Of a stretch of 64,000 nt of DNA, positions 7,179 through 54,568 are shown one piece after another; positions within the stretch are counted from its first letter, which is position 1; each line of letters starts with the position of its first letter. Under the pieces are notes generated by a model that saw nothing but the letters and a program-made list of their open reading frames with translations, had not been told where the DNA came from and searched no databases. Both the position numbers and the translations under genes were made by a program. The stretch is from NCBI GenBank assembly GCA_016214075.1, contig JACRPI010000005.1:66662-130661 (forward strand), read 5' to 3'. The DNA is from Candidatus Woesearchaeota archaeon (lineage in GTDB: Archaea; Nanobdellota; Nanobdellia; Woesearchaeales; DSVV01).

Positions 7179-7181
7179 AAA

Positions 7182-7706
7182 ATGGAAAAAAGAATACTGC
7201 TTGATACAAATGTGTATGGGAAACTAGTTGAAGATACATTCATTTTTCCTTTATTACTAGATCAAAAAACGTGTAATAATCTTGTTGTTTATGGTACTGA
7301 TGTTATTAGAAAAGAACTTCGCGCGATATCAAAGAAAGCGACAGATAAAAAAGGTCAGAAGATTAGGTTGTATACATTATATGTCTATGATAACCTTATA
7401 ACAAAAGCGAATCATACTTTGAGAGTGAATAATTTTATTGAATGTTTGGCGCAATTATACATGAATGGATATAAGATAAGAGGTGGTGGAGTTGGAGAAG
7501 CAGAGATCAAAAATGATTTCCTGATAGTTGCATGTGCAACATTGCATAATTTAGATATTGTTATCTCAGATGATAAGCGGACGATGCTCAGCACAGCTGC
7601 TCTTGCTGCGTACAAATGGGTTAATCAAAAACAAGGTTTTCAAAATCCAAATTATATGCACTATATTACATTTAGAGATAAATTACTTAAGAAGGGTGGT
7701 ATTTAA
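7182..7706 (+). CDS. PIN-domain ribonuclease toxin 1
   Basis: 174 residues. PIN-fold acidic residues are visible: Asp8 in LLDTNVYG, the Glu in IRKEL (~45), the Asp in NDFLIV (~111) and SDDKRTM (~130). PIN toxins of VapC type cleave tRNA, rRNA or mRNA and are restrained by a small antitoxin. The start lies 3 bases after the stop of the secreted-protein gene. The last 20 bases overlap the 3' end of an opposing small gene (7687-7812). Paralogues lie at 8196 and 10890 in the same arrangement. Fold confident; toxin role inferred from family and context. Confidence 0.8.
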   Translation: MEKRILLDTNVYGKLVEDTFIFPLLLDQKTCNNLVVYGTDVIRKELRAISKKATDKKGQKIRLYTLYVYDNLITKANHTLRVNNFIECLAQLYMNGYKIRGGGVGEAEIKNDFLIVACATLHNLDIVISDDKRTMLSTAALAAYKWVNQKQGFQNPNYMHYITFRDKLLKKGGI

Positions 7707-7812
7707 TGAATGCGCGCAATGCTTTCATAAACTCGGGATCTTTTTTAGCTTCCTCGACCTCTTTAATAAACGCTTTTACTGTTTTCCATTTATACTTTGT
7801 TTTCTTTTCCAT
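7687..7812 (-). CDS. Small antitoxin-like protein 1
   Basis: 41 residues from the ATG at 7812 (MEKKTKYK...). The core EVEEAKKDPEFMKALRAFIK is shared with the small proteins at 8699-8833 (DIENAKKDPEFVKALKRFIK) and 11398-11526 (EIEKAKRDPEFVKALKAFIR), each converging on a PIN gene. The open frame extends upstream to 7905, but that part is repeated promoter DNA, so the inner ATG is preferred. A TATA-like ATTTAAATATA lies just upstream. Highly charged, single amphipathic helix. An antitoxin role is inferred from strict pairing with PIN genes; no experiment is known to me. Confidence 0.65.
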   Translation of the reverse strand: MEKKTKYKWKTVKAFIKEVEEAKKDPEFMKALRAFIKYHPS

Positions 7813-7820
7813 AATAACAA

Positions 7821-8022
7821 TAACGCAACCATTATATTTAAATTTTACTATAAAAAAGCAACAAATCGCCAAGCAGTGCAAGATACACGCACCAGCAACA
7901 TCCACATAGTATATTTATATAATTATTAGTAAATAAAAAATACAAAAAAGAGAAGGAAAAACACACAGGAAATTGGAATGAAATCCCACCAAAGAAAATA
8001 TTACGGAAGTTTGTTTGTGATT
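7821..8022. repeat. Duplicated divergent-promoter region, copy 1
   Basis: This stretch recurs at 8842-9043 at a constant offset of 1021 bases with only a few mismatches. It covers the antitoxin promoter, an ACACGCACCAGCA box, a TATA-like TATATTTATATAA, the ribosome-binding region and the first 15 codons of the MKSHQ protein. It therefore marks a duplication of the whole secreted gene/PIN/antitoxin unit. Confidence 0.85.
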
Positions 8023-8199
8023 ATAGTAAACGCACTAAATAATTGTGATAGGAGTAGTGCGTTTACTATCCCTCTGAGGCGATATACCCATTCAATAATA
8101 AATCGCCTCAGAGATATGTTTTTGATAGTAGCGACAGCGATGTTGTTGACGAATTATGAAAATAAGGATTTGGTGGGGATGGCGGTGATTCCTCTATGA
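7978..8199 (+). pseudogene. Truncated, element-interrupted copy of the MKSHQ surface gene
   Basis: 73-codon open frame. The first 15 codons match the start of the gene at 8999. Then 93 bp (31 codons, in frame) of two-hairpin DNA intervene, after which MFLIVATAMLLT resumes the match, fading after ~20 more codons at GMAVIPL. The other ~590 residues of the full-length gene are missing. The stop TGA overlaps the ATG of PIN gene 2 (ATGA), so translation through the remnant could still feed the toxin gene. Best read as a decayed duplicate that may persist as a leader peptide; a functional small membrane peptide cannot be excluded. Confidence 0.75.
8023..8115. mobile_element. Two-hairpin element, copy 1 (inside the MKSHQ remnant)
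   Basis: Exactly 93 bp absent from the intact paralogue (GTGATT|ATGTTTTT at 9038-9051). Hairpin 1: 15-bp perfect arms 8023-8037 and 8055-8069, 17-base loop. Hairpin 2: 12-bp arms 8072-8083 and 8102-8113, 18-base loop. No target duplication beyond an ambiguous AT; the left flank is TTAT. Similar layouts occur at 24188 and 48376. The lack of target duplication and the paired terminal hairpins resemble IS200/IS605-derived non-autonomous elements, but the stems differ in sequence between copies. Confidence 0.7.
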
Positions 8200-8711
8200 A
8201 ACGAATACTGCTCGATACAAATGTGTATGGAAGATTAATGGAAGATAAGGAATTTTTGTCTCGATTACTGATATTAGTCCCTTCTTTCTTTGTGGTATAT
8301 GGTTCTACTATTATTAGGCAGGAGTTGCGTGACATTTCTAAAAAGGCAAAATTTCAGGGAAAAAGTAAAAGAACATTTGCGCTTTCTGTTTACGATGCTT
8401 TTATTAGAAAAGAGAACCACACACTCCAAAACACAGATCTTATTCTTCTCATTGCGCATAAATATTTTGAAGCATATAAACAAAAAAAAGGAAGCTTCTC
8501 CTTTGATGAGTTGCTTGTTGACTTTACGCTTGTTGCTCTTGCGTCATTTCATAAATTAGATCTTATTGTTTCTAATGATAAGAGAACTATGGTATCAGAT
8601 AAAGCGAAGGCAGCATTTTCTCAAGTAAACACTCAATATCAATTAAGAACTCCTGAATTTTACACTTATGAAAATTTTAAAAAGTATGTGGGAGGAAATC
8701 AACTACGATGA
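8196..8711 (+). CDS. PIN-domain ribonuclease toxin 2
   Basis: 171 residues, starting in an ATGA overlap with the truncated surface gene. PIN motifs: LLDTNVYGRL, IRQELRD, VDFTLVALAS and SNDKRTM; the penultimate acidic pair reads ND rather than DD. More divergent from PIN 1 and PIN 3 than they are from each other, particularly in the middle and at the C terminus. It converges with its partner at 8699-8833, overlapping by 13 bases. The surface gene that normally precedes these PIN genes has decayed here, yet toxin and partner are both intact, which argues that the pair is selected on its own. Confidence 0.78.
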   Translation: MKRILLDTNVYGRLMEDKEFLSRLLILVPSFFVVYGSTIIRQELRDISKKAKFQGKSKRTFALSVYDAFIRKENHTLQNTDLILLIAHKYFEAYKQKKGSFSFDELLVDFTLVALASFHKLDLIVSNDKRTMVSDKAKAAFSQVNTQYQLRTPEFYTYENFKKYVGGNQLR

Positions 8712-8833
8712 GCACTCAATTTAATAAAACGCTTCAAAGCTTTAACGAATTCAGGATCTTTCTTAGCGTTTTCAATATCTCTGAGCAGCTTTTGTACTTT
8801 TTTATCCTCTGCCAACGATTTTTCTTGTTTCAT
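8699..8833 (-). CDS. Small antitoxin-like protein 2
   Basis: 44 residues from the ATG at 8833 (47 if the in-frame ATG at 8842 is used; the latter sits ~22-25 bases from the ATTTAAATATA box and would suit a leaderless start). Core DIENAKKDPEFVKALKRFIK as in the two sister proteins, with a variable Lys/Glu-rich N terminus. Its stop lies inside the 3' end of PIN gene 2. Inferred antitoxin of that PIN protein. Confidence 0.65.
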   Translation of the reverse strand: MKQEKSLAEDKKVQKLLRDIENAKKDPEFVKALKRFIKLSAHRS

Positions 8834-8841
8834 ACCACTCA

Positions 8842-9043
8842 TAACGCAAGTATTATATTTAAATCTTACTATAAAAAAGCAACAAATCGCCAAGCAGTGC
8901 AAGGTACACGCACCAGCAACATCCACATAGTATATTTATATAATTATTAGTAAATAAAAAATACAAAAAAGAGAAGGAAAAACACACAGGAAATTGGAAT
9001 GAAATCCCACCAAAAAAAATATTACGGAAGTTTGTTTGTGATT
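8842..9043. repeat. Duplicated divergent-promoter region, copy 2
   Basis: Partner of 7821-8022. It serves as the shared control region between the antitoxin 2 gene (leftward) and the 628-residue surface gene (rightward). It contains an ACACGCACCAGCA box at about 8903 and TATATTTATATAA near 8930. In this copy the coding sequence continues uninterrupted after GTGATT. Confidence 0.85.
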
Positions 9044-10885
9044 ATGTTTTTGATAGTAGCGACAGCGATGTTGTTGACGAGATCAGGAAATAATAATGTG
9101 ACAGGGATGACGACGTTTGAAGAAGGAAATCAAGTCTCTTATCTTTATTATGACGGTACGGATAATGTTATTTACGAAGATTACCTCTATTATCATAATG
9201 GAAATTATTATGTAAAAAATTCAGAAACAGATACAGAGTTAGGTAAAGCCTTTAGTTCATATGGAGATGCTGTAACGTATATGAATGAGCATGTACCTAG
9301 GAGTGCAAAGAAGACTGTTATTAACCTTGAAACTGATTTTTCTGTAATCTCCACCTACACTATAGGGGAAGATGCAGCATACATAAGAACGAAGATTGCT
9401 GATGAAACAGCTAGTCCATTTAATGTAAAAGCTGCAACAACAGCAGACGCACAGACTGTAAGCAAAGCAGGTAAAGTAGAAACTTTTGACTATGCTGAAG
9501 ACACAAACACACTCACTGTAAAGATTGGTGGCTATACTTACGAATATAAAATAGTGGAGATTGGTGGAGAGTATTATGCAGAGAAAACAAGTGGGGGTAC
9601 GAAATTTTACACAGATGAAGCGGGCGTAATCTGGAAATATGAAGGGGAGAAATTAGTAAAGACTGGATCAATCGAGTCTGCTTTTTTAGGTACAGACGAT
9701 AAAGTTCTTCCTGTGTTTAGTGCAGTACTTAGCAATGAAGAAGAAAGAAGATCAACTGCGAAAAAAATGGAAGCATATCAAAAAACAGCAACAGAAATTG
9801 GCGGTGGAGTGACAGGAGAAGACCTCTACGGCGAAGAAACCGCAATCAACGCATACTTAGATCTGAGTGAGAGTACAAAAGGAGTCACCTACGATGTCGC
9901 TTCAGGTTATTACTCAGGAAAAACAAGTGAAGGAACGTATATCTTCCATGATAAAGACGGAAATACTGGAACTTCTGTAACTGTAAGTAAGCAAGACGGG
10001 ACTACTACCACAATTAACATCCTAAAAGAAAAAGGAACACCTCTTGGTAAACCAACATATTATCAATGTACTACCATAGATGAACATGGTATTTGTACTG
10101 CAAAAGTAAAATATTCTGGAGATACATCTGATTTCTCAGATGCGATCACTGATGCAAAAAAAGCAGATGAAGATATACAAGAAGGTATTCAAAAACAAAT
10201 GGAAATATGTAAGAAGCCTGATAATTCTGCTTGTCAATTAAAATCTGGCGATACGCAAATCTCCGCAACCGCACGCCAAACAGCGTTCATGAATCGTATG
10301 TACGCGGAACAAGAAGCAAAAGTGCAAGGACTTATCGCAGGCTGGCTCAATGGATGGCTCGATGAAAAGCTTGGAGGCTGGAGTAGAGGAGTGCCAGCGG
10401 GAATTTGCGCGTACATCTTTGGGTTGGAATACTACAAACAAGACGGCTGGACACGAGTGACAATGAACGCGTCAGTGGATCAGCTTCAGTCACAATTAAT
10501 CGCGAACAGCAGAACAGTGATTATAGAAGGAGAAAAAGAAGAAATTACAGAAGACATGTTCCGCTATGCCTACACAGTAAAATTATTAGCAAATCAATCA
10601 GTGGAGTGGCAAACCTATCTCTACAATAGTTGTACAGGAGAAACATCAGTCGATACATTTTACGATTACGGCTCATTACTTGCGGGCGGATACTTCGCGT
10701 TCCATTATGCAGGAGCAGGAGCGCAGGATATGATTTTCGAGTGCGAGCAAGAAATCTGTCTCTACGATCAAGCGTGTGTTGTCTTTGCAGATGGAAGTAC
10801 ACCAACCTGTGTCAGCTTAGTGCATGGCGCTGGGTTTGAAACACCTGTTGCAGGAAATGATTATGATTGTGCGATCACAGGGTAA
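8999..10885 (+). CDS. Membrane-anchored surface protein (MKSHQ family)
   Basis: 628 residues. N-terminal anchor: basic MKSHQKKYYG then a hydrophobic segment (~residues 11-26) followed by TRSGNNNVTGMTT. Residues ~40-420 are Tyr/Thr/Glu-rich with repeated 'G-x-Y-Y' turns, suggesting beta structure outside the cell. The last ~170 residues hold eight or more cysteines and aromatic segments (GICAYIFGLEYYKQDGW, CTGETSVDTFYDYG). Asn-X-Thr/Ser sites suit glycosylation. I do not recognise the family. PIN gene 3 starts 4 bases after the stop. A decayed duplicate of its 5' end is at 7978. Confidence 0.7.
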   Translation: MKSHQKKYYGSLFVIMFLIVATAMLLTRSGNNNVTGMTTFEEGNQVSYLYYDGTDNVIYEDYLYYHNGNYYVKNSETDTELGKAFSSYGDAVTYMNEHVPRSAKKTVINLETDFSVISTYTIGEDAAYIRTKIADETASPFNVKAATTADAQTVSKAGKVETFDYAEDTNTLTVKIGGYTYEYKIVEIGGEYYAEKTSGGTKFYTDEAGVIWKYEGEKLVKTGSIESAFLGTDDKVLPVFSAVLSNEEERRSTAKKMEAYQKTATEIGGGVTGEDLYGEETAINAYLDLSESTKGVTYDVASGYYSGKTSEGTYIFHDKDGNTGTSVTVSKQDGTTTTINILKEKGTPLGKPTYYQCTTIDEHGICTAKVKYSGDTSDFSDAITDAKKADEDIQEGIQKQMEICKKPDNSACQLKSGDTQISATARQTAFMNRMYAEQEAKVQGLIAGWLNGWLDEKLGGWSRGVPAGICAYIFGLEYYKQDGWTRVTMNASVDQLQSQLIANSRTVIIEGEKEEITEDMFRYAYTVKLLANQSVEWQTYLYNSCTGETSVDTFYDYGSLLAGGYFAFHYAGAGAQDMIFECEQEICLYDQACVVFADGSTPTCVSLVHGAGFETPVAGNDYDCAITG

Positions 10886-10889
10886 TACA

Positions 10890-11417
10890 ATGGAAAAAAG
10901 AATATTGCTGGATACAAGTGTGTATGGGAAATTAGTAGATGATACTCTTTTGTTTGCGCTATTATTAGAAAGAAGAAAAAATAATGAATTTATCATTTAT
11001 GGAAATGAGCTCATCAGAAAAGAACTTCGTGCGACACCTAAATCTTTGTTAAATAAGACGAAAGAAAAAAAGGTACGTCTGTTTGGACTATCTCTTTATA
11101 GCTCTTTAATCACTAAAGAAAATCATGTGTTAAAAATAAATTCTCTCATGGAAAATTTAGCGAAGTTATATTATCAAGAGTACCGAAAAGGAGGGGGAAA
11201 TTTTAGTGCTTTGGAGTTGCATAATGATTTTCTTATGGTCTCCTGTGCAACACTGCATCAATTAGATTTGGTTGTTTCTGATGATCGGCGAACAATGTTT
11301 AGTGATGGCGCATTGCATGCGTATGAAATGGTAAATCACAAAATGGGATTTAGAAATCCGGATTATCTGCTTTATAATGTGTTTAGAGAAAAAATCCTTA
11401 AGAAGAGTGGTATCTAA
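10890..11417 (+). CDS. PIN-domain ribonuclease toxin 3
   Basis: 175 residues from the ATG at 10890, chosen over an upstream in-frame ATG at 10824 because MEKRILLDTSVYGKL aligns with PIN 1 from its first residue and the upstream part overlaps the surface gene. Motifs: LLDTSVYG (Asp8 kept, Asn changed to Ser), IRKELRA, NDFLMVSCA, SDDRRTM. Closest to PIN 1 over its full length. Its final 20 bases overlap the opposing small gene at 11398-11526. Confidence 0.8.
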   Translation: MEKRILLDTSVYGKLVDDTLLFALLLERRKNNEFIIYGNELIRKELRATPKSLLNKTKEKKVRLFGLSLYSSLITKENHVLKINSLMENLAKLYYQEYRKGGGNFSALELHNDFLMVSCATLHQLDLVVSDDRRTMFSDGALHAYEMVNHKMGFRNPDYLLYNVFREKILKKSGI

Positions 11418-11526
11418 TGAACGCTTTCAGTGCTTTGACAAACTCGGGGTCTCTTTTCGCTTTTTCAATTTCATGTATGAGTTTTTGTTCTTTTTTAGTA
11501 AGGGCAAACAATAATTTTTTATCCAT
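11398..11526 (-). CDS. Small antitoxin-like protein 3
   Basis: 42 residues, ATG at 11526, TAA at 11398, found by reading the strand opposite the PIN 3 terminus. It begins MDKKLLFALTKKEQKLI and ends EIEKAKRDPEFVKALKAFIR plus YHSS. The second half aligns residue by residue with the two other small proteins, which confirms that all three are real. A TATA-like TATACTTTACATG region lies just to its right. Inferred antitoxin of PIN 3. Confidence 0.65.
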   Translation of the reverse strand: MDKKLLFALTKKEQKLIHEIEKAKRDPEFVKALKAFIRYHSS

Positions 11527-14538: not shown

Positions 14539-17500
14539 GTGGCGAATAAAAGGTCAAAAATGAAAACAAAATCAAGAAGCAGAAAATTCAGTAAATTCTT
14601 CGTCGCGCTAGTTCTCTCACTCCTCTTCACAACACTCCCTGTTGCCTTTGCGGTGTCGGTGAATCCAAGCTCGATTGTTGTCGAAGTAACAGACACAACC
14701 GCGACAATTGGTTGGACAACAGACACTGCGTCAACAGGCATTATTAATTATGGAAAAACAACATCTGGAATGCAGAGTGTCGCGTCAACAGCAGGGCAGG
14801 CAACAGCGCATGAAGCGTCAATCACAAACATTGAAGATAATCAGTATTATTATTACAATATTCAGGCAACAGACAGCGCGGGAACCTATACGTCAACGTA
14901 CATGAATTTCACGACATTGCCAAAAGCGCCAGAAGATTTGGAAGCGGATGTAGACATAAATTACGTCACTTTATCGTGGACTGAACCAGATGGCGCGCAA
15001 TATTACAATGTCTATCGCAATGGAGCGCTTTCCGCGGTTGCGCCAGGAGAAGAGTATGAAACAAGCGCATTAAGTTACAAAACAACTTACACATTCAAAG
15101 TCACCGCGGTGGATAAATATGGACGAGAAAGCGCGGCGTCAGAAGAAATTTCTGTGACAACAAAAGAGCAGCCAGTGAATATGACATTTGTGCAGGCAAA
15201 TGAAATCACCAAAACAACAGCAGTTGTTTCGTGGCAGACAGACAGAGAAACAAATGCGACAATAAAGTATGGCACAACTAAAACAGTATTAAATCTCTCG
15301 CAGAAAGATAGCGATCTCACGACAACGCATGAGTTCACATTGAAAGATTTGCAGGAAGACACAACGTATTATTATGAAATCATTGCAGCGTCATCAACAG
15401 GAGCAGAAATATATTATTTCAAAACATTGGGCGATGAAACAGCGATTGAAATCATGAATGTCGAATCCAGTGATCCAACACGAAGTACTGTGGAAATTAG
15501 CTGGACAACAAATTATGAAACACGCGGTTCTATCGAATACAGCACAGATGATTCTTTCTCAGAGTCAAAAAGAGAAGATACAGAACAAGTGCAGCACAGC
15601 GAACAACTCAGTGATCTTCTCAGCGGCATGACATATTACTATAAGGTTGTCGTAGACAGCACAGAAAGCGATATCTACAATTTCACCACATCAGAAAGTT
15701 TGTATGATTTCCTTGATCTCGAAGATGTTCCATCATTAGTAAGCAGCGCAACGCTCACGCTAAAGGGAGCAACAGCAGAGAATGGAAAAATATACATTTT
15801 TGTGAACAAAGAAAGTAATCCATATGCGCAAGTAATGATGACTGCGACAGGCACGCAGTTTGAAGCAAATGTCACCTTAAACGCGTACAGTTATGTGGAG
15901 GGCGTGAAAGGAAGAAACATTGTCGAGATTGATTCTTGGGATGAAAATAATAACAAAGCGGTAAAAACCTACACAATCGATACAGATCTTGGTTCACCTT
16001 TACTCACCCTCAACGATATTCCAACCTATATCAACACAAACAAAGTCAATGTTTCAGGATATACAGAACAAAACGCGACAGTCACATTCCTCATTGATGA
16101 AAAAAGTAAAGGATCAATTTATGTCAGTGATGAAACAGGATTTTTCAGTTATCAGGTGGATGTGGGAACATCGACAACAAACCATACGTTTGCAATAGAA
16201 GCGCAAGATTATGCGGCAAATACAGTGAGATATGAAAAAATAATATATGTCGATCGACAAGATCCAAAATTAGATTTCTACACGAGCTTTGCGGAGCAAA
16301 CGCATTACAAATTATTCCGAATTGATGGAAATACAGAACCAGGCGCGGCGATCACCGTCACGAATTATGGCGAATTCTCTGGCTGTGAAACCCCTGAATT
16401 CCAAACAAAGTACGGTGAATGTGACTATCTTGCGAATGTGTATGGGCCCGGTCCGTATCAATCATTAGAAGCGCTTCTCGATCCAACAAGTTTGATGGTG
16501 GATCTTTTATCGATGACTATTGGTGTTCCAACATCAACAGTCGCGGACACTGATGGAAACTTCTCCGTCATTGTTTCCTTGTTTCCAGGAGAAGCGGATC
16601 AGCAGCTGCTCGGGAAAAACACATTAATTTTTAACGTCACCGATCAAGCGGGCAACAAATATGACACGACAAAGCAAGTGAAATATCAACCAAGTTGTAT
16701 TGACTGGGCACTCGCGGAAACAACATCATTCCCAATTAACATTTACACGCAGGATCTTACTGCGGGAGATATCACAGGAAGTTCATTATTCGAATTAAGA
16801 TACATTGGTGGTGGAGTTCCTGAAGTTGGAAAAATCACAGTCAAAGAAGATGAGTCTGGTGGAAAATTGATCGCGCAATCAAGTGTTGATATAGGAACAG
16901 CAGAATCAATGTATTACTCGCAGAGTTATGGTGGATTAGAAAACAGTAATGAATATATCAGCATCAGTTCGCAGACAGTCAAAACAACAGCGTATGACAA
17001 AGACACAGGAAAAGTCTACATTTACGCGCCAGTGACCATCAACAGATACAAAGACAATGTTGATGAGTTGCCAGAACAGATTGGGGTGTATCTTGATGTG
17101 TTTATGAGTTACACAGATGGCAATGGAGATCTCGCGAATTGTCACATGTATCCTGCGGTGAGTTATGATATTCAAAAGCCAGAATCATTTACAAAATGGT
17201 TGAGTCCAACGATGATTAATCAGACAATCGAGTTGCTTGATCAAACAATTAATGTCACCGAATCCGCAGTCAAATATTTGGAGATTACAGCGCGGTGGAC
17301 AACAGTTGCGTGTGGCGCGACGATTGCGTGGAATTATCTGCGAGGATTTGATGGAGGCAATTATGTAGAAGACGTATCTGGAGAACAATGTAACGTCAAT
17401 TTGAAAACAGTGTATTCGGTGTGTGATAGAATCTTGTGTCCAGCGATTCCGCCGAATTGTGATGATAGCAAAATAAAGAGTGAAGGATTGTATAAATACA

Positions 17501-40693: not shown

Positions 40694-40790
40694 CTTCTAT
40701 ATATACTTCACGCTCGCATGTCCAGTGGAGGAAGTGGATTCACTTTACTGAGAATAAAAGCACTGGACAAGGGGATTTGGGGAGTGGGAA
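40694..40790 (-). promoter_or_regulatory. TGTCCAGTG dyad upstream element, copy R1
   Basis: Arms TGTCCAGTG (40719-40727) and CACTGGACA (40761-40769), 33 bp apart, with an inner AAGTG-GATT-CACTT. On the minus strand a TATA-like TATATATAG follows at ~40697. It sits between the winged-helix regulator gene (minus) and the cyclase-family gene (plus). Four sister copies lie at 42412, 44670, 45863 and 52716. Confidence 0.7.
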
Positions 40791-42411: not shown

Positions 42412-42506
42412 TTTTATATATCTCACACTGGCGTGTCTAGTGGGGGAAGTGGATTCACTTTACTGAGAATAAGAGCACTGGACAGCGTGGTTTGTCTTGT
42501 GCTATC
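42412..42506 (-). promoter_or_regulatory. TGTCCAGTG dyad upstream element, copy R2
   Basis: Arms TGTCTAGTG (42434-42442) and CACTGGACA (42476-42484), 33 bp apart; the inner AAGTGGATTCACTTTACTG is identical to R1. On the minus strand the element ends at the TATA box (GATATATAAAAT, ~42413-42424), about 22 bases before the ORF6N start. Confidence 0.75.
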
Positions 42507-43824: not shown

Positions 43825-44649
43825 TTATTTCTCCAATCGCTTCACTTTTTCTGGAGTTTCCAGATAATTGTCAGAACTCACTATTGATTTTCCAATTCTT
43901 TTTTCAATATCTTTGCGCGTTGCTCCTGCAACATCGCCGCCATCTTTCGCGTCTTTCTTTAAAGCAGGTAATTTCTCAGAATCTCTTTCTTTAGTTAATC
44001 TTGTTGTTGTTGCTTCTCCGAGCATCGTGAGAATAAGTTCCATGTCATCCATGTGATCACGCAGATTTTGTTTGCTGAGATTTTTGTGCTCTTTGTATTC
44101 TTCCACTGTTTTTCCAAATGTTGCTTTGGAGATTTCATTGGTCAGTATTGCAAAGTCTTTGTTTTCCTGTGCTCCTCGTGCTTTCCATTCATCAGTGAGT
44201 TCTTGTCGTACAGCGATTCCTCGTGTTCGCTTTTCAATCCATTCATCAGAGTATCCTTTGAGTCTGTATACATCCTTCATTCGTTCCATCGAGAGTTCAG
44301 GATTTTCAATCTCCTGCACACGTTCATATCCCACTTTCGCGAGCCATTGTTTGAACGGTTCAGCTTTCGGAGAAGGAATGGATTGGATGATGCGGAAGAT
44401 GCCTTCTGTGCTTGCACAGTTTATATTTTGTACACCCCCTGCTGTGGGAAATGAGAGGGGGGTGGCAATTTGCCCCCACCCTTGAGAGAGAATCTCATCA
44501 CGTCTGCGCATATCTTTAATGTACCCTTTAGGGTCTTTAGAATCAGTAAGAACTGAAATAACATCCTCTATCACAAACCACCATTTGGCATTATACCATG
44601 CTCTTCTGATCTGTTTATTCTCAAATAGCACAAGAGACTTTTGTTCCAT
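43825..44649 (-). CDS. BRO-N family protein (antirepressor/DinD-like)
   Basis: 274 residues from the ATG at 44649; the longer frame to 44718 is promoter repeat DNA shared with the RhuM gene. Residues ~1-115: BRO-N domain (VLFENKQIRRAWYNAKWWFV, EDVISVLTDSKDPKGYIKDM, CASTEGIFRIIQSIPSPKAE, FKQWLAKVGYERVQE). Residues ~130-230 are helical and carry the conserved KGYSDEWIEKRTRGIAVRQE, known from prophage antirepressor and DinD-like proteins. Probably DNA binding; role in a former virus or in host regulation unknown. Confidence 0.83.
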   Translation of the reverse strand: MEQKSLVLFENKQIRRAWYNAKWWFVIEDVISVLTDSKDPKGYIKDMRRRDEILSQGWGQIATPLSFPTAGGVQNINCASTEGIFRIIQSIPSPKAEPFKQWLAKVGYERVQEIENPELSMERMKDVYRLKGYSDEWIEKRTRGIAVRQELTDEWKARGAQENKDFAILTNEISKATFGKTVEEYKEHKNLSKQNLRDHMDDMELILTMLGEATTTRLTKERDSEKLPALKKDAKDGGDVAGATRKDIEKRIGKSIVSSDNYLETPEKVKRLEK

Positions 44650-44669
44650 ACAAAAGGTGTTAACTTCAT

Positions 44670-44765
44670 TCTTTATATATCTCACGCTGACGTGTCCAGT
44701 GTGAGGAGTGCACTGCATTTACTGAGAATAAAAGCACTGGACAGAGTGGTTTGTCTTGTGATAGT
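44670..44765 (-). promoter_or_regulatory. TGTCCAGTG dyad upstream element, copy R3
   Basis: Arms TGTCCAGTG (44693-44701) and CACTGGACA (44735-44743), 33 bp apart. The TATA box (ATATATAAAG on the minus strand, 44671-44680) and the sequence down to the start codon also match R4, so the whole promoter is duplicated between the BRO-N and RhuM genes. Confidence 0.78.
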
Positions 44766-44783: not shown

Positions 44784-45842
44784 TTAATCTTTTTGTTCTA
44801 ATAATTTTTTAGTGACTTTGTCAAAATCAGATTCGAACAAATTATCTTGAACTATTCGATACTTTTCAAATTCGCTTTCTGCATGCTGTTTTGCAATCTC
44901 TGCGGTTATTTCACCTGCGGATTTTAATATTTCTCTTTCATCAAATTCTAAGAACAAATCAAGTCTTTTTGACCAATCTTCCATGGTCATAGGTATTTTT
45001 CTTTTTGCCCTTTCTTCTGCTAAATCAAGGTATGCACTGACTATTCTTCCTAAAGATTCTAATTCTTTTTTTGTTAAGTAATTTTTTGCAATGGATACGT
45101 CGGTCTTGAGTATTCTACCCTTAGGAGAATTTCTCCATGATGTTAAACCCATATAATCTTTCTTGCTATCTGCTCTTTTCACAATTAATTCTGGCGCAGT
45201 ATGTTTGTGTATTGCATAATGGAGTTTATTTTGAACTTTAGCGAAGAATTCTCTAGTTGTTTCTGCGTTTTTATTATAATCTAAGCTTGTTGCATAAAGA
45301 TCAGTTATTTTTTGGTAGAAATTTCGTTCACTTAATCGTATTTCCCTAATTTCAGCTAAAAGTTCATCAAAGTAATTCTTATTTAAATAATTTCCATTTT
45401 CTAGTCTTTTTTTGTCTAAAACATATCCTTTGATTGCAAATTCTTTAATAATTCTTGTTGCCCAAATCCTAAACTGAGTGGCTCTCTGTGAATTTACCCG
45501 ATATCCAAGAGAAATGATTGCATCTAAGTTGTAAAAATCTACCTCTCTTTGCACACTTCTATTCGCTTCATTTTGAACTATTCTGAATTTCCTAATAGTT
45601 GATTTTTCGTTTAATTCTTTAGATTCATATATATTTTTAAGGTGTTCATTTATTGTGGGAACAGTAACATCAAACAGCTTTGCCATCATTTTCTGTGATA
45701 ACCAAAGAGTCTCCTCCGCATACTTTACTTCAATAGAATCTTCTCCTGACTGTGCAGTAAATATAAGGAATTCAGCAGTGCTGTTTCTTATAGCAAGATC
45801 TTTAGTCATTTTAATGGTCTCCAGAGGATTTTCATCAGCCAT
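44784..45842 (-). CDS. RhuM-family protein
   Basis: 352 residues from the ATG at 45842; an extension to 46040 is rejected because it reads through the R4 repeat. RhuM signature throughout: EFLIFTAQSGEDSIEVKYAE, ETLWLSQKMMAKLFDV, INEHLKNIYESKEL, REVDFYNLDAIISLGYRVNS, ATQFRIWATRIIKEF, then the helical half with RLSERNFYQKITDLYATSLD and DYMGLTSWR. RhuM is found on pathogenicity islands, prophages and in DPANN genomes; biochemical function is unknown and the N-terminal part is a probable DNA-binding domain. Confidence 0.88.
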   Translation of the reverse strand: MADENPLETIKMTKDLAIRNSTAEFLIFTAQSGEDSIEVKYAEETLWLSQKMMAKLFDVTVPTINEHLKNIYESKELNEKSTIRKFRIVQNEANRSVQREVDFYNLDAIISLGYRVNSQRATQFRIWATRIIKEFAIKGYVLDKKRLENGNYLNKNYFDELLAEIREIRLSERNFYQKITDLYATSLDYNKNAETTREFFAKVQNKLHYAIHKHTAPELIVKRADSKKDYMGLTSWRNSPKGRILKTDVSIAKNYLTKKELESLGRIVSAYLDLAEERAKRKIPMTMEDWSKRLDLFLEFDEREILKSAGEITAEIAKQHAESEFEKYRIVQDNLFESDFDKVTKKLLEQKD

Positions 45843-45862
45843 ACAAAAGGTGTTAACTTCCT

Positions 45863-45962
45863 TCTTTATATATCTCACGCTGGCGTGTCGAGTGGGGGTT
45901 GTGGATTGTATTTTCTGAGAATAAGAACACTGGACAGAGTGGTTTGGGGAGTGTGAGGAAGG
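45863..45962 (-). promoter_or_regulatory. TGTCCAGTG dyad upstream element, copy R4
   Basis: Arms TGTCGAGTG (45886-45894) and CACTGGACA (45928-45936), 33 bp apart. ATATATAAAG on the minus strand sits right beside it, ~22-30 bases from the RhuM ATG. The inner hairpin of R1/R2 is not kept (GTGGATTGTATTTT), so only the outer arms and spacing are constant. Confidence 0.75.
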
Positions 45963-50085: not shown

Positions 50086-52692
50086 TTACTTCCTCCCCTT
50101 CTCCAAACTAATTTTCGCCAAAACCAATTCATGCATGCGCTGCAAAAAGGCGATCTTATCCTCAATCTTCAACACATCCATAAAGCCTTGCAACGCAATA
50201 TTAAACGCGAATGGCGTAGGAATCTTGGTCTGAATTTCAACAAGTCTAATCTTCCCCTCCTCAATTTCGCGCAAAACCTTCTTTGAGTTTTCAATTTCCA
50301 TCAAATCTTCAAGTACTTCACGTCGAGCTTCCTTGAGAATACAAAAATCATCAGAAATCCTTTTCACCGCGCTCATCAAAATCATCGAACTCACTTGCTG
50401 CCGTCCAGCATTCTTCTGTCTTCCCATGTAATTCCGCAAAATCATAAAGCCACGAGTCGCGCAATGTCTAAACCGCCGTTTCAAAATCTCTGTCTGATCA
50501 ATCGCGTGCTTCATTACTAAATCAAGTTTATCAGATTTCAATGTCTTTAATGCCTTCACTGCGTCAATCTTCTTTGCGAATCCAACATAAAATCCATTAT
50601 CGTTCATGCCTATTTCGACATCGCGATGTTCCATCCGCGCAATCGCAAACGCGACTCCTCTACTCAACACGTCATTCACCCTTCTGCCAAAAAGCGTGTG
50701 AAAAATAATCTTGTTTTGTTTATTATCAGTATAATGTTCGATTAAAATCTTGCGATCAGAAGGAAAATGCCCGGCATACTCGTATTGTTCAGCAAAATAA
50801 TTGTACAACGCTTCAGAACTATTTGCATCCACATACAGATACTCGTGAATAAAATCCAAAATATCCTTCTTCGATTTATCATGCTTAAATTTATCTTCCA
50901 TTAAAAATCTGAAGTGCCCAATTTCATTTGCGAGATCAAAACTCAACGGCAACATATCAGAAAACCAGCTTGGCACAGTAGGAGGTCGATTCGATGTCGC
51001 GACAACTTGCGCGACCATGCCACGAGAAAATTTGAATTGGTAGGTATCGCCGCCTAAAATAAATACATCTCCTGGTCGAAGTTTCTCCAAGAATCCTTCA
51101 TCAATGTGACCAATAGTTTGTGTTCCAACTTTGACGATCACAAAACTTTCATCAGGAATAGTGCCGAGATTGGTCATGTAAATAATTCTACCCAATTTCC
51201 CACGTTTACCCAATTTGCCATCCTGTCTCCAGATTTTCGCGAAGATGTGTCGATCTTCAAGGGTGGTAAATTCTCCTGCTAAATACAACAAAACCTCAAG
51301 ATAATCAGTATGTTTCAAATCACGATAACAATAACTCCTCTTCACTAACTGAAAGAGTTCTTCTTCATCCCACACTTGCATGAGCGCGAGTCCATCAATG
51401 TACTGCGCAAGAACATCCAAACAGTTTACAGGAATGTGAATTTTATCGATCTTTTTCTCAACAGCTGCTTTCAACAACACACTGCACTCGACAAGATCAT
51501 CTCTGTCCATCACAATAATGCGGCCTTTGACAGTTTCATGCAATTTGTGTCCAGCTCGTCCAGCTCTTTGAAGAAACCGCGCGACTGATTTTGGCGAGCT
51601 GAGACAAATAACAAGATCAATGTAACCAATATCAATTCCTAACTCCAGAGACGTGCTGCACACCACGCATTTCAGTTTTCCTTCGCGAAGACGTCGCTCC
51701 AAATTCTGTCGCAGTTCCTTGCCCAGACTTCCGTGATGCGCGCCAATGTTGTCTGTATAATTTTTTGGAAATTTGTGTTTCAGATGATCAACCACTCGTT
51801 CCGTAGCGCTTCGTGTATTCGTAAAGATAAGCGTTGTTTTATGTTGCTGCACAAGATCATCAATAACTTTGTACATTGCAGCGTGCATAACTTCATGCGC
51901 TGTTCCGATAAGATCTGGAACAGGACAAATAACTTGTAAATCCAGTTTTTTAAGAAATTGCACATCCACAATCTGACAGTTGCGCGAAGAGCCGACAAGA
52001 AATCCAGCGACTTTCTCGAGGGGCGCGACAGTCGCGCTTAGTCCAATACGGGTAATGTGCGGCGCGATAAAAGAAAGTGTTTCGAGCGCGAGAGAAAGAT
52101 GAACCCCGCGTTTATTGTCTGCGATCGCGTGCACTTCATCAATAACAACCCATTCCACGTTGCGAAGATGTTCCACAAACTTAATGCTTGCGAGCATGAT
52201 TGCAAGACTTTCTGGCGTGGTAATGAGAATGTGTGGTGGTGTTTTGAGCATCTTGGATTTTTCATAAGAAGTTGTATCTCCTGTCCGAATACCGACACGA
52301 ATTCCTAATTTTTTACCTGCAATATTTTCCATTTGTTCAAGCGGCTCAACAAGATTCTTGTGAATATCATTGGAAAGCGCGCGCAGGGGACTCACATAAA
52401 CACAATAAACGCGATCCTGCAATGTTCCTTTTTCGCTGTGATCAATGAGTTCATTCAGTACAGCGCCAAAGGCGGACAGTGTTTTTCCAGAACCAGTTGG
52501 CGCGCTGACGAGCGTATTAATGCGACAATGAATGTTGTAAATAGAATACCGTTGCGGTTCGCTAAAGCTTGTAAACTTTTCGAAGAACAATTGTTTGAGA
52601 AGCGGATGTAAAATACTTGTGGTCAAACTATCTTCATGCGGCTTTTCCATGAATTCTATTTTTCCAGTCGTTTCACTGCTTGGGTTTGTCAT
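50086..52692 (-). CDS. lhr: Lhr-type ATP-dependent helicase
   Basis: 868 residues, the usual archaeal Lhr-core length (bacterial Lhr is ~1500). Motifs: Q-like FTSFSEPQRYSIY, Walker A SAPTGSGKT, VYVSPLRALSNDI, TPESLAIML, DEVH (VVIDEVHAIADNKRG), LSAT, then STSLELGIDIG and QRAGRAGH. The C-terminal ~400 residues fit the winged-helix and Lhr-specific domain. 3'-5' ATP-dependent DNA/RNA helicase linked to repair. A TATA box (GATTTATAACC, minus strand) lies ~25 bases before the ATG, and dyad element R5 lies just beyond it. Confidence 0.93.
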   Translation of the reverse strand: MTNPSSETTGKIEFMEKPHEDSLTTSILHPLLKQLFFEKFTSFSEPQRYSIYNIHCRINTLVSAPTGSGKTLSAFGAVLNELIDHSEKGTLQDRVYCVYVSPLRALSNDIHKNLVEPLEQMENIAGKKLGIRVGIRTGDTTSYEKSKMLKTPPHILITTPESLAIMLASIKFVEHLRNVEWVVIDEVHAIADNKRGVHLSLALETLSFIAPHITRIGLSATVAPLEKVAGFLVGSSRNCQIVDVQFLKKLDLQVICPVPDLIGTAHEVMHAAMYKVIDDLVQQHKTTLIFTNTRSATERVVDHLKHKFPKNYTDNIGAHHGSLGKELRQNLERRLREGKLKCVVCSTSLELGIDIGYIDLVICLSSPKSVARFLQRAGRAGHKLHETVKGRIIVMDRDDLVECSVLLKAAVEKKIDKIHIPVNCLDVLAQYIDGLALMQVWDEEELFQLVKRSYCYRDLKHTDYLEVLLYLAGEFTTLEDRHIFAKIWRQDGKLGKRGKLGRIIYMTNLGTIPDESFVIVKVGTQTIGHIDEGFLEKLRPGDVFILGGDTYQFKFSRGMVAQVVATSNRPPTVPSWFSDMLPLSFDLANEIGHFRFLMEDKFKHDKSKKDILDFIHEYLYVDANSSEALYNYFAEQYEYAGHFPSDRKILIEHYTDNKQNKIIFHTLFGRRVNDVLSRGVAFAIARMEHRDVEIGMNDNGFYVGFAKKIDAVKALKTLKSDKLDLVMKHAIDQTEILKRRFRHCATRGFMILRNYMGRQKNAGRQQVSSMILMSAVKRISDDFCILKEARREVLEDLMEIENSKKVLREIEEGKIRLVEIQTKIPTPFAFNIALQGFMDVLKIEDKIAFLQRMHELVLAKISLEKGRK

Positions 52693-52715: not shown

Positions 52716-52802
52716 GTTATAAATCTTACTCGTGTTTGTCGAGTGGAGGAAGTGCGATCCTTTGTCGAGAGTAAAAGCACTGGACAAGAAGAAATGGCTA
52801 GT
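52716..52802 (-). promoter_or_regulatory. TGTCCAGTG dyad upstream element, copy R5
   Basis: Arms TGTCGAGTG (52737-52745) and CACTGGACA (52778-52786), 32 bp apart. It directly abuts the TATA box of lhr on one side and the truncated rlmH 3' end on the other. The inner sequence (AAGTGCGATCCTTT) retains only part of the R1/R2 inner hairpin. Confidence 0.72.
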
Positions 52803-52805
52803 GCT

Positions 52806-52892
52806 ACTTCTGATACTTCCTTCCACTGTTAATCATCCAACTTCTATAGATCTGTTCAACAAGTAATCCCTGCGCAATCTCATGAGGAAACG
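52806..52892 (-). pseudogene. Displaced 3' end of rlmH (87 bp)
   Basis: Ungapped match to 54112-54198, the last 87 bases of rlmH, with 6 mismatches. Read on the minus strand it encodes FPHEIAQGLLVEQIYRSWMI plus NSGRKYQK and a TAG stop; the live gene has HV for QG at two adjacent positions and a TGA stop. Apart from those adjacent residues (and the differing stop), the changes are silent. It has no start and no 5' part. It forms the left boundary of the NTase-pair island. Confidence 0.88.
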
Positions 52893-52949
52893 CAACTAAT
52901 AACAGAAATTACCACAATCTTTATATATACCATAACCTTTATTATAATT

Positions 52950-53597
52950 ATGCTTATAAAAATAGACGAATCAGCTTTTTCAACTATCTTTGGGAAAGTA
53001 GAAATAGCTACCATAAATAAAAGAATGCAAGGAGCACCTTTAACACAAGTAGAACGCAACTATTTATCACGTTCCATTCGTCCAAAATTGCGAGCTGCAA
53101 GAATCATAACTGAACAAAAAATGCTAGACCAACTTACCAAAGGCAGTCCAGAAAGAGAGCGGATAGAATATAATCTCAACAGATATGGCTATCCTTTGTT
53201 CGCCATAACAAAAAGAAAATCATTGCTTTTATCTATTGAGGAGCTTATTGCGTTAATTCTCACAAAATACCGTTCTCCAAGATATATTGAAGCAATTCCA
53301 TTCCTCTTTCTTAAAAATAAAATTGACGCTTGGAAGATGTTAGAGCTTGCGTCTCAATTTCAGATCAAAAATGAGATAGGGTATCTTCTCGAGACAGCGT
53401 TTCTCATAAAACCAATCCCTCAATTAAAAAAATTATTATCATTTCTTAAAAAAAATAAAGAAAAAAATCTGGCGTTTTTAGCAGAGGGGGATTATGAATT
53501 TCTTCTCAAGACAACACCAATACGTCTCAGGAAATGGAATCTGCTTGGAAGATTTTTTGATAGTGATTTTCTTGAAAAAGCAAAGGTGATTTTGTGA
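52950..53597 (+). CDS. Partner protein of the NTase pair (putative antitoxin)
   Basis: 215 residues, ATG ~25 bases after a TATA box (TTTATATATACC). All-helical, basic, with a region EYNLNRYGYPLFAITKRKSL that may be a wing of an HTH domain, and Arg-rich NYLSRSIRPKLRAARII. Its TGA overlaps the GTG of the next gene (GTGA). The arrangement, an upstream helical protein overlapping an NTase gene, fits abortive-infection AbiE-like or related toxin-antitoxin pairs, where the first gene is the antitoxin. Family not recognised with certainty. Confidence 0.55.
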   Translation: MLIKIDESAFSTIFGKVEIATINKRMQGAPLTQVERNYLSRSIRPKLRAARIITEQKMLDQLTKGSPERERIEYNLNRYGYPLFAITKRKSLLLSIEELIALILTKYRSPRYIEAIPFLFLKNKIDAWKMLELASQFQIKNEIGYLLETAFLIKPIPQLKKLLSFLKKNKEKNLAFLAEGDYEFLLKTTPIRLRKWNLLGRFFDSDFLEKAKVIL

Positions 53598-54103
53598 TTG
53601 ACAAGAGTGAGTTGTTGGCATGGCTTGCTGAAAAAGACAAAATCTTAGAGAAGGAAATAATTCTTGTTGCGGTTGGAGGAACAGCAATGACACTTTTAGG
53701 TTTGAAATCCTCTACTATTGACGTAGATTTTTGTCTCAGTGCTGCTCAGAAAAAAATATTCGAAAAATTGATAACAAAACGAGATAAGAACTGGAAAGTT
53801 GACTTGTTTACAGATGGCTACATTTTCTCTGAGCAGCTTCCACATGATTATGTTGACAAAGCAGAAGAGATCAAAAGGTTAAATCATGTTGTCTTAAAGG
53901 CTCTTGCTCCTGTGGATATTGTCATTACTAAAGCAGCGCGGTTAAATGCGCGGGATGAGGAGGATATTGCAGCGTTAGTAAAATTTGTGAACAAAGAAGA
54001 GCTTATCAAACGGTTTGAAAAAGTAGTAACAACCTATGCGGGAAAAGAGGAAGAGTATCGATATCATTTTGGAATTATTCTCAAAAGATTTTTTAATCAA
54101 TAG
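53594..54103 (+). CDS. Nucleotidyltransferase-like protein (AbiEii/DUF6036 type)
   Basis: 169 residues from a GTG in the GTGA overlap. NTase hallmarks: VAVGGTAMTLLGLKSSTIDV (the GG...A and the D-x-D pair, here IDVDF), then VDLFTD with the third acidic residue. A helical tail carries LAPVDIVITKAARLNARDEE, common to AbiEii/DUF6036 and related toxins; the motif K-x-x-R-x-x-x-R/D-x-x-D is recognisable. Such enzymes modify RNA or tRNA when freed from the antitoxin. Converges on rlmH with a 6-base gap. Confidence 0.75.
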   Translation: MIDKSELLAWLAEKDKILEKEIILVAVGGTAMTLLGLKSSTIDVDFCLSAAQKKIFEKLITKRDKNWKVDLFTDGYIFSEQLPHDYVDKAEEIKRLNHVVLKALAPVDIVITKAARLNARDEEDIAALVKFVNKEELIKRFEKVVTTYAGKEEEYRYHFGIILKRFFNQ

Positions 54104-54109
54104 AAAAGA

Positions 54110-54568
54110 TCACTTCTGATACTTTCTTCCACTGTTAATCATCCAACTTCTATAAATTTGTTCAACAAGCAATACATGCGCAATCTCATGAGGAAACGTC
54201 ATTGGTGACAAGGACAAAAGAACGTGCGCTTTTTTCTTCACCGCATCCGAAAGTCCATACGCGCCGCCAATCACAAAAATAACTCTCTTTTCTGCGTTCT
54301 TCTTCAAAAAGTCAGCGAACCCAACACTATTCAGCAGCTTCCCTTCTTCAGATAATGCAATAATAAAACAATCATTTTTCATCGCTTCTATTTTCTCAAG
54401 CAATCGATCTCCTTCTTTTTTCCGAACAGCGTCAACATCATTGGTTGCTTTCTCTTCTTTGACAGACAAAACAGTAATCTTTTCAGAAGAAAGCCGCTTC
54501 AGATATTCTTGAACAAGCGCGATAATGTTTCTGTCTTTCAATGTTCCAACAGTGAGAATGGTGATCAT
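54110..54568 (-). CDS. rlmH: 23S rRNA m3-pseudouridine methyltransferase (SPOUT)
   Basis: 152 residues, normal length. SPOUT knot motifs: MITILTVGTLKDRNI start, FIIALSEEGKLLNSVGFADF, VIFVIGGAYGLSDAV (the SAM-binding glycine loop), LSLSPMTFPHEIAHVLLVEQ, IYRSWMINSGRKYQK end, of which the last 28 codons are repeated at 52806. The enzyme methylates pseudouridine in helix 69 of large-subunit rRNA (position 1915 in E. coli). The VIT1-like gene lies 6 bases upstream, so they are probably co-transcribed. Confidence 0.94.
   Translation of the reverse strand: MITILTVGTLKDRNIIALVQEYLKRLSSEKITVLSVKEEKATNDVDAVRKKEGDRLLEKIEAMKNDCFIIALSEEGKLLNSVGFADFLKKNAEKRVIFVIGGAYGLSDAVKKKAHVLLSLSPMTFPHEIAHVLLVEQIYRSWMINSGRKYQK

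Follow-up and report, generated by a model that had tools for sequence, protein, structure and literature searches.

Methicillin resistance spreads on elements whose classic docking site is the 3' end of rlmH and, to our knowledge, such docking has been known so far from Firmicutes. In E. coli, e14 and phage 21 bring an alternative gene end to icd, with mostly silent changes; these elements are bacterial, encode their own integrase and use a gene other than rlmH. Within Firmicutes, insertion at rlmH is established for both the staphylococcal and the enterococcal cassette chromosomes (SCC and ECC, respectively), the att repeats of the latter being about 50 bp long with the core TATCATAA (PMC6222049). 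The C-terminal tail of RlmH is catalytic and conserved (PMC5430550). Among archaea, a report on the iMGEs of Thaumarchaeota describes elements, such as NitEve-E2, that replace the 3' ends of protein-coding genes, new stop codon included; a search of that report for rlmH gave no match (PMC6563490). A literature search found no report of insertion at rlmH in archaea.

The window, that is, the whole 64,000-nt stretch analysed here, comes from a Woesearchaeota MAG (G000) and carries an intact rlmH whose last 29 codons recur on the far side of a small island (Table 1). The preliminary description of this DNA had put the repeat at 87 bases with 6 mismatches, and both a repeat search and BLAST confirmed this: the copies have the same orientation, align without gaps and are identical at 81 of 87 positions (93.1%; BLAST E 1.4e-30 within the window). 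Local alignment of the two flanks of the island scores 41 SD above shuffles, and the repeat has only two copies in the whole G000 genome. The displaced copy, as had also been claimed, retains the frame and a stop, reading FPHEIAQGLLVEQIYRSWMINSGRKYQK up to a TAG codon; the stop codons lie just outside the 87-nt repeat proper and differ, with TGA in the gene and TAG in the displaced copy. The tail-to-tail distance is 1306 bp. Likewise, the 1.2-kb island was found to hold an overlapping gene pair alone, ORF1 and a nucleotidyltransferase (NTase) gene that share 4 nt being its sole ORFs.

Table 1. Features of the rlmH locus in the window (positions counted from the first letter of the window)
Feature	Position	Strand	Remarks
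Lhr-type helicase gene	50086..52692	-	Orthologue in G001; presumably the gene that followed rlmH until the insertion
Genus-specific promoter-type repeat, one copy	52737..52788	-	TGTCCAGTG...CACTGGACA arms; between the displaced rlmH stop and the Lhr gene
Displaced rlmH 3' end, probably the former chromosomal end	52806..52892	-	Stop TAG at 52804-52806
Presumed cassette promoter	52893..52949	+	TTTATATATACC TATA-like box, with similar boxes in G024 and G025; predicted from sequence
ORF1, 215-aa helical protein, HTH-like	52950..53597	+	Possible DNA-binding antitoxin or regulator
DUF6036 nucleotidyltransferase, possible toxin	53594..54103	+	PF19502, E 1.1e-10
Proximal 87-nt repeat copy, the present functional rlmH 3' end	54112..54198	-	
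rlmH (23S rRNA pseudouridine methyltransferase)	54110..54568	-	Intact, stop TGA; Pfam SPOUT_MTase, E 1.8e-43

Of the six mismatches between the tails, four are synonymous; under neutral hits, so low a number of amino acid changes has P 0.035. The nearest relative fetched, G001 (JACRKI010000180.1), belongs to the same genus, with 71% amino acid identity in rlmH, and the proximal tail has the G001 state at 6 of the 7 polarisable differing sites, the TGA stop included. Over the same 89 nt, the G000 and G001 tails are 79% identical, compared with 93% for the repeat pair, so that the repeat seems to be more recent than the separation of G000 and G001. When the rlmH tail was tested for mosaicism against G001, its higher identity proved to be nothing special, the N-terminal part being equally similar; the assembly of G002 has no match to rlmH. 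The displaced tail runs right up to the promoter-type repeat of Lhr, where the native gene end would lie.

We surveyed the 3' flanks of 62 rlmH loci from the order, up to 15 kb long where the contig allowed. A displaced in-frame tail is present at two of these, the window (score 1.00) and G310:C58 (L243; 0.89), against a next best score of 0.41 and a maximum of 0.42 in a reverse-strand control; the other 60 have a single rlmH 3' end, and eight more rlmH loci with 1.5-kb flanks yielded no new case. G310 represents another archaeal family, and its contig is judged archaeal from the Alba gene upstream, a typical neighbour of rlmH in archaea. In this contig, 12 bp separate rlmH from chrA (chromate transporter; PF02417, E 2.4e-86), beyond which comes the displaced tail, 11 codons reading VTIIKGRPYHK up to the stop, at a tail-to-tail distance of 1302 bp; the near-equality of this spacing with that in the window may be due to chance. 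Over their last 33 nt, the G310 tails are 79% identical; the 7 differences, TGA versus TAA included, are all synonymous, a pattern with P of ~2e-5 under neutral hits. The G+C content of the insert is 0.50 versus 0.42 for rlmH. The expectation in the preliminary description that different cargo would be found between such repeats elsewhere is thus borne out by chrA in another family; the companion expectation of relatives with a single gene end holds for the 60 loci of the order, whereas the visible sequence of the close relatives includes no empty site (the G001 contig ends in ORF1).

The control set comprised the 1,368 ORFs with 150 or more codons in the archaeal DNA retrieved, ~1,306 of them other than rlmH. 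Comparable non-paralogous tail duplications occur in 1-2 of these ~1,306 ORFs. In the clear case (L283/G091, near 15835-16110), a second version of the last 13 codons lies 174 bp downstream, the two differing by a pair of silent changes and one change of Ala to Thr; the other is an ORF inside a repeat of G025, and L284 and the PIN genes of the window were set aside as tandem paralogues. The window has three PIN-domain-like paralogues interleaved with large secreted or membrane proteins at 7181-11462, with a 226-bp repeat of 95% identity. The excess of tail duplications at rlmH (P 0.006-0.011, based on two events) supports the end of this gene as a preferred site; the L283 case indicates that other gene ends are usable too. 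Altogether, mobile DNA seems to land repeatedly at the rlmH tail in archaea, as it does in staphylococci.

The cargo of the window island is an operon of ORF1 and the NTase gene. The NTase contains the motif of its fold (GGT...DVDF, for hGGT..DVD); in ORF1, the N-terminal part is swapped for a different one in G003/G291, and the C-terminal part is conserved. Single-sequence structure predictions for ORF1 and the NTase were of low confidence (pLDDT 54 and 44, respectively), profile searches against PDB gave no convincing relative, PADLOC left the operon unmatched, and an Rfam scan detected nothing at the island. A toxin-antitoxin role is a guess prompted by the gene organisation and the NTase family. 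Like AbiE-type and other NTase toxin-antitoxin operons, this one is an overlapping pair in which a possible DNA-binding protein comes first and a Pol-beta-type NTase follows; unlike AbiE, the NTase belongs to DUF6036 rather than AbiEii, and PADLOC does not recognise the pair, which is known here from its sequence. No relative of the NTase was found in phages and plasmids; in IMG/VR, searches for relatives of the operon and of the window rlmH and for the tail pattern all came back empty. Separately, a 31-kb IMG/VR contig, L301 (IMGVR_UViG_3300034684_000212), is possibly a provirus at the rlmH of another host: it starts with a truncated rlmH, the 3' end of which is directed into an HNH gene and uncharacterised phage-like genes.

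The operon is present in ~20 genomes of the order, and its neighbours differ in every genome where they can be read, so that it acts like a mobile gene pair. A convergent gene commonly ends 2-12 bp away from the NTase stop; in G001, this NTase and rlmH stand tail to tail, with 2 bp between the NTase and the rlmH stop, and the contig ends inside ORF1. Framing direct repeats are conspicuous only in G000 and G025, and the remaining operon loci have none clearly above background. In G025, the operon lies between local 220-bp direct repeats (83% identity) that recur beside the neighbouring cassette(s). The G025 locus (L081; G025:C53:1-10000) is an array of defence-like cassettes in one orientation, with homologous repeats of up to 220 bp between them; the cassettes are this operon and, judged by eye, an HTH-like/HEPN-like pair and an AlbA-like protein. 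Third-position identity of the NTase between G000 and G001, 0.65, is the highest among the genuine orthologue pairs (0.35-0.57 for the others; 0.50 for rlmH), which suggests that the operon was exchanged after G000 and G001 parted; the direct synonymous contrast of the NTase with rlmH has P 0.046, which is weak on its own.

The promoter-type repeat that borders the displaced tail is ~75-90 nt long and consists of CACAAGACA, the TGTCCAGTG...CACTGGACA arms, CACGC..GCGTG and a TATA box. There are a dozen copies in G000, including others in the window at 40694-40789, 42413-42504, 44646-44763 and 45839-45956, and more in G001/G002. These copies often precede genes of the Bro-N, RhuM, ORF6N and KilA-N types, and one precedes Lhr; the repeat may serve as a common operator or mark where a cassette ends. 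In G001, the Lhr helicase (L122; G001:C128:1-1884) contains an apparent intein ending HN|C in the QRAGRAGH motif; the Lhr of G000 has none.

How, then, did the gene end come to be present twice? The mostly synonymous differences and the retained stops imply that the tails diverged as working gene ends, in different lineages, and were combined later; a relic copy would lose its coding character. The G001-like state of the proximal tail, together with the position of the displaced one against the Lhr repeat, favours the view that the displaced tail is the original end in the host and that the proximal tail came with the operon. We lean, on balance, towards the insertion at this site of a recombinase-less cassette that carried a substitute rlmH 3' end and was served by machinery in trans. 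The cassette would consist of the promoter, ORF1, the NTase gene and the substitute end, ~1.3 kb as a putative circle. Small and non-autonomous, it would enter at the rlmH 3' end; its own tail, with the TGA stop, would join rlmH and restore the gene, and the original tail of the host, with the TAG stop, would presumably be pushed 1.3 kb off, to lie beside the promoter of the next gene, Lhr. A site-specific integrase or recombinase would act in trans, because the cassette encodes none: neither the window island (ORF1 and NTase only) nor that of G310 (chrA only) contains a recombinase gene. A recombinase elsewhere in the genome had been anticipated, and G000 does encode two tyrosine recombinases (C27 and C8) outside the island; these are candidates only and could act in trans on the cassette.

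The main rival, which we consider unlikely, dispenses with a dedicated enzyme: a related species with a G001-like arrangement would have donated a piece of DNA, linear or circular, and one crossover within the 3' end of rlmH would have captured it, leaving two diverged tails. G001 displays just such a donor arrangement, with the operon adjoining rlmH, the coding-type differences suit a foreign allele, and 87 nt at 93% identity are marginal but possible for homologous recombination. G310, however, fits this course of events poorly, since 33 nt at 79% identity are too short and too diverged for ordinary homologous recombination, and the use of the same gene end in two families would be left unexplained. 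The position of the operon next to rlmH in both G000 and G001, at a spacing of 2-6 bp, can also be read as a sign that it stood there before the two species split, with slippage or a segmental duplication copying the tail across it later, in G000; indeed, the operon in G001 is so close to the rlmH stop that it may be old at this site, and the apparent youth of the repeat would agree. A free copy should nevertheless decay neutrally, yet in the window the stop was kept and synonymous differences predominate, and in G310 no other kind of difference occurs, so that local duplication appears improbable. A long target-site duplication, or recombination within a cassette array as in G025, would account for the repeat beginning 9 nt past the NTase stop and ending 58-81 nt before ORF1 in both G025 and G000; we regard it as very improbable because the G025 repeats are local array repeats rather than gene tails, and at the other operon loci framing repeats do not rise clearly above background.

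The insertion of a recombinase-less cassette, our preferred reading, bears on the parallel with staphylococcal SCC drawn in the preliminary description. That parallel stands insofar as there is an insertion at an archaeal rlmH 3' end with the gene end duplicated; it does not extend to a recombinase in either island or to the core TATCATAA in the window copy. The SCC core is found in both G310 copies, and TATCAGAA takes its place in both window copies. Because ccr genes are missing and, in the window, the core as well, SCC membership was rejected: the window island is SCC-like in site and architecture but is not an SCC member. SCC and ECC share with the archaeal cases insertion at the rlmH 3' end, a direct duplicate of the gene end, variable cargo and an rlmH that is kept intact; the archaeal cases differ in their host, in the size of the islands (1.2 kb, with 1-2 genes), in the lack of ccrAB and in repeats of 87 and 33 nt. 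By eye, the island boundaries are the rlmH tails, not integron-type GTTRRRY/RYYYAAC hairpins. Compared with elements that restore the 3' end of their target gene, the window island has a functional substitute end and mainly silent differences but no integrase of its own. The Thaumarchaeota iMGEs likewise integrate 3'-distally and supply a new end and stop; as described there, they are large multigene elements with short att sites that target genes for a Zn-finger protein, an AsnC regulator, EF-2 and others (PMC6563490). More tentatively, and with some doubt, we suggest that the order could have a cassette-chromosome system of its own, in which a recombinase specific for the rlmH tail would move recombinase-less one-operon cassettes in trans. 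Such a system, if real, would have arisen independently of SCC, because the RlmH tail, catalytic and conserved, offers the same stable target.

The use of the rlmH site in two archaeal families, with cargo as small as an NTase operon or a chromate transporter, suggests that the site is favoured because the tail of RlmH is catalytic and conserved, and it points to a possible route by which small archaeal genomes acquire single genes.
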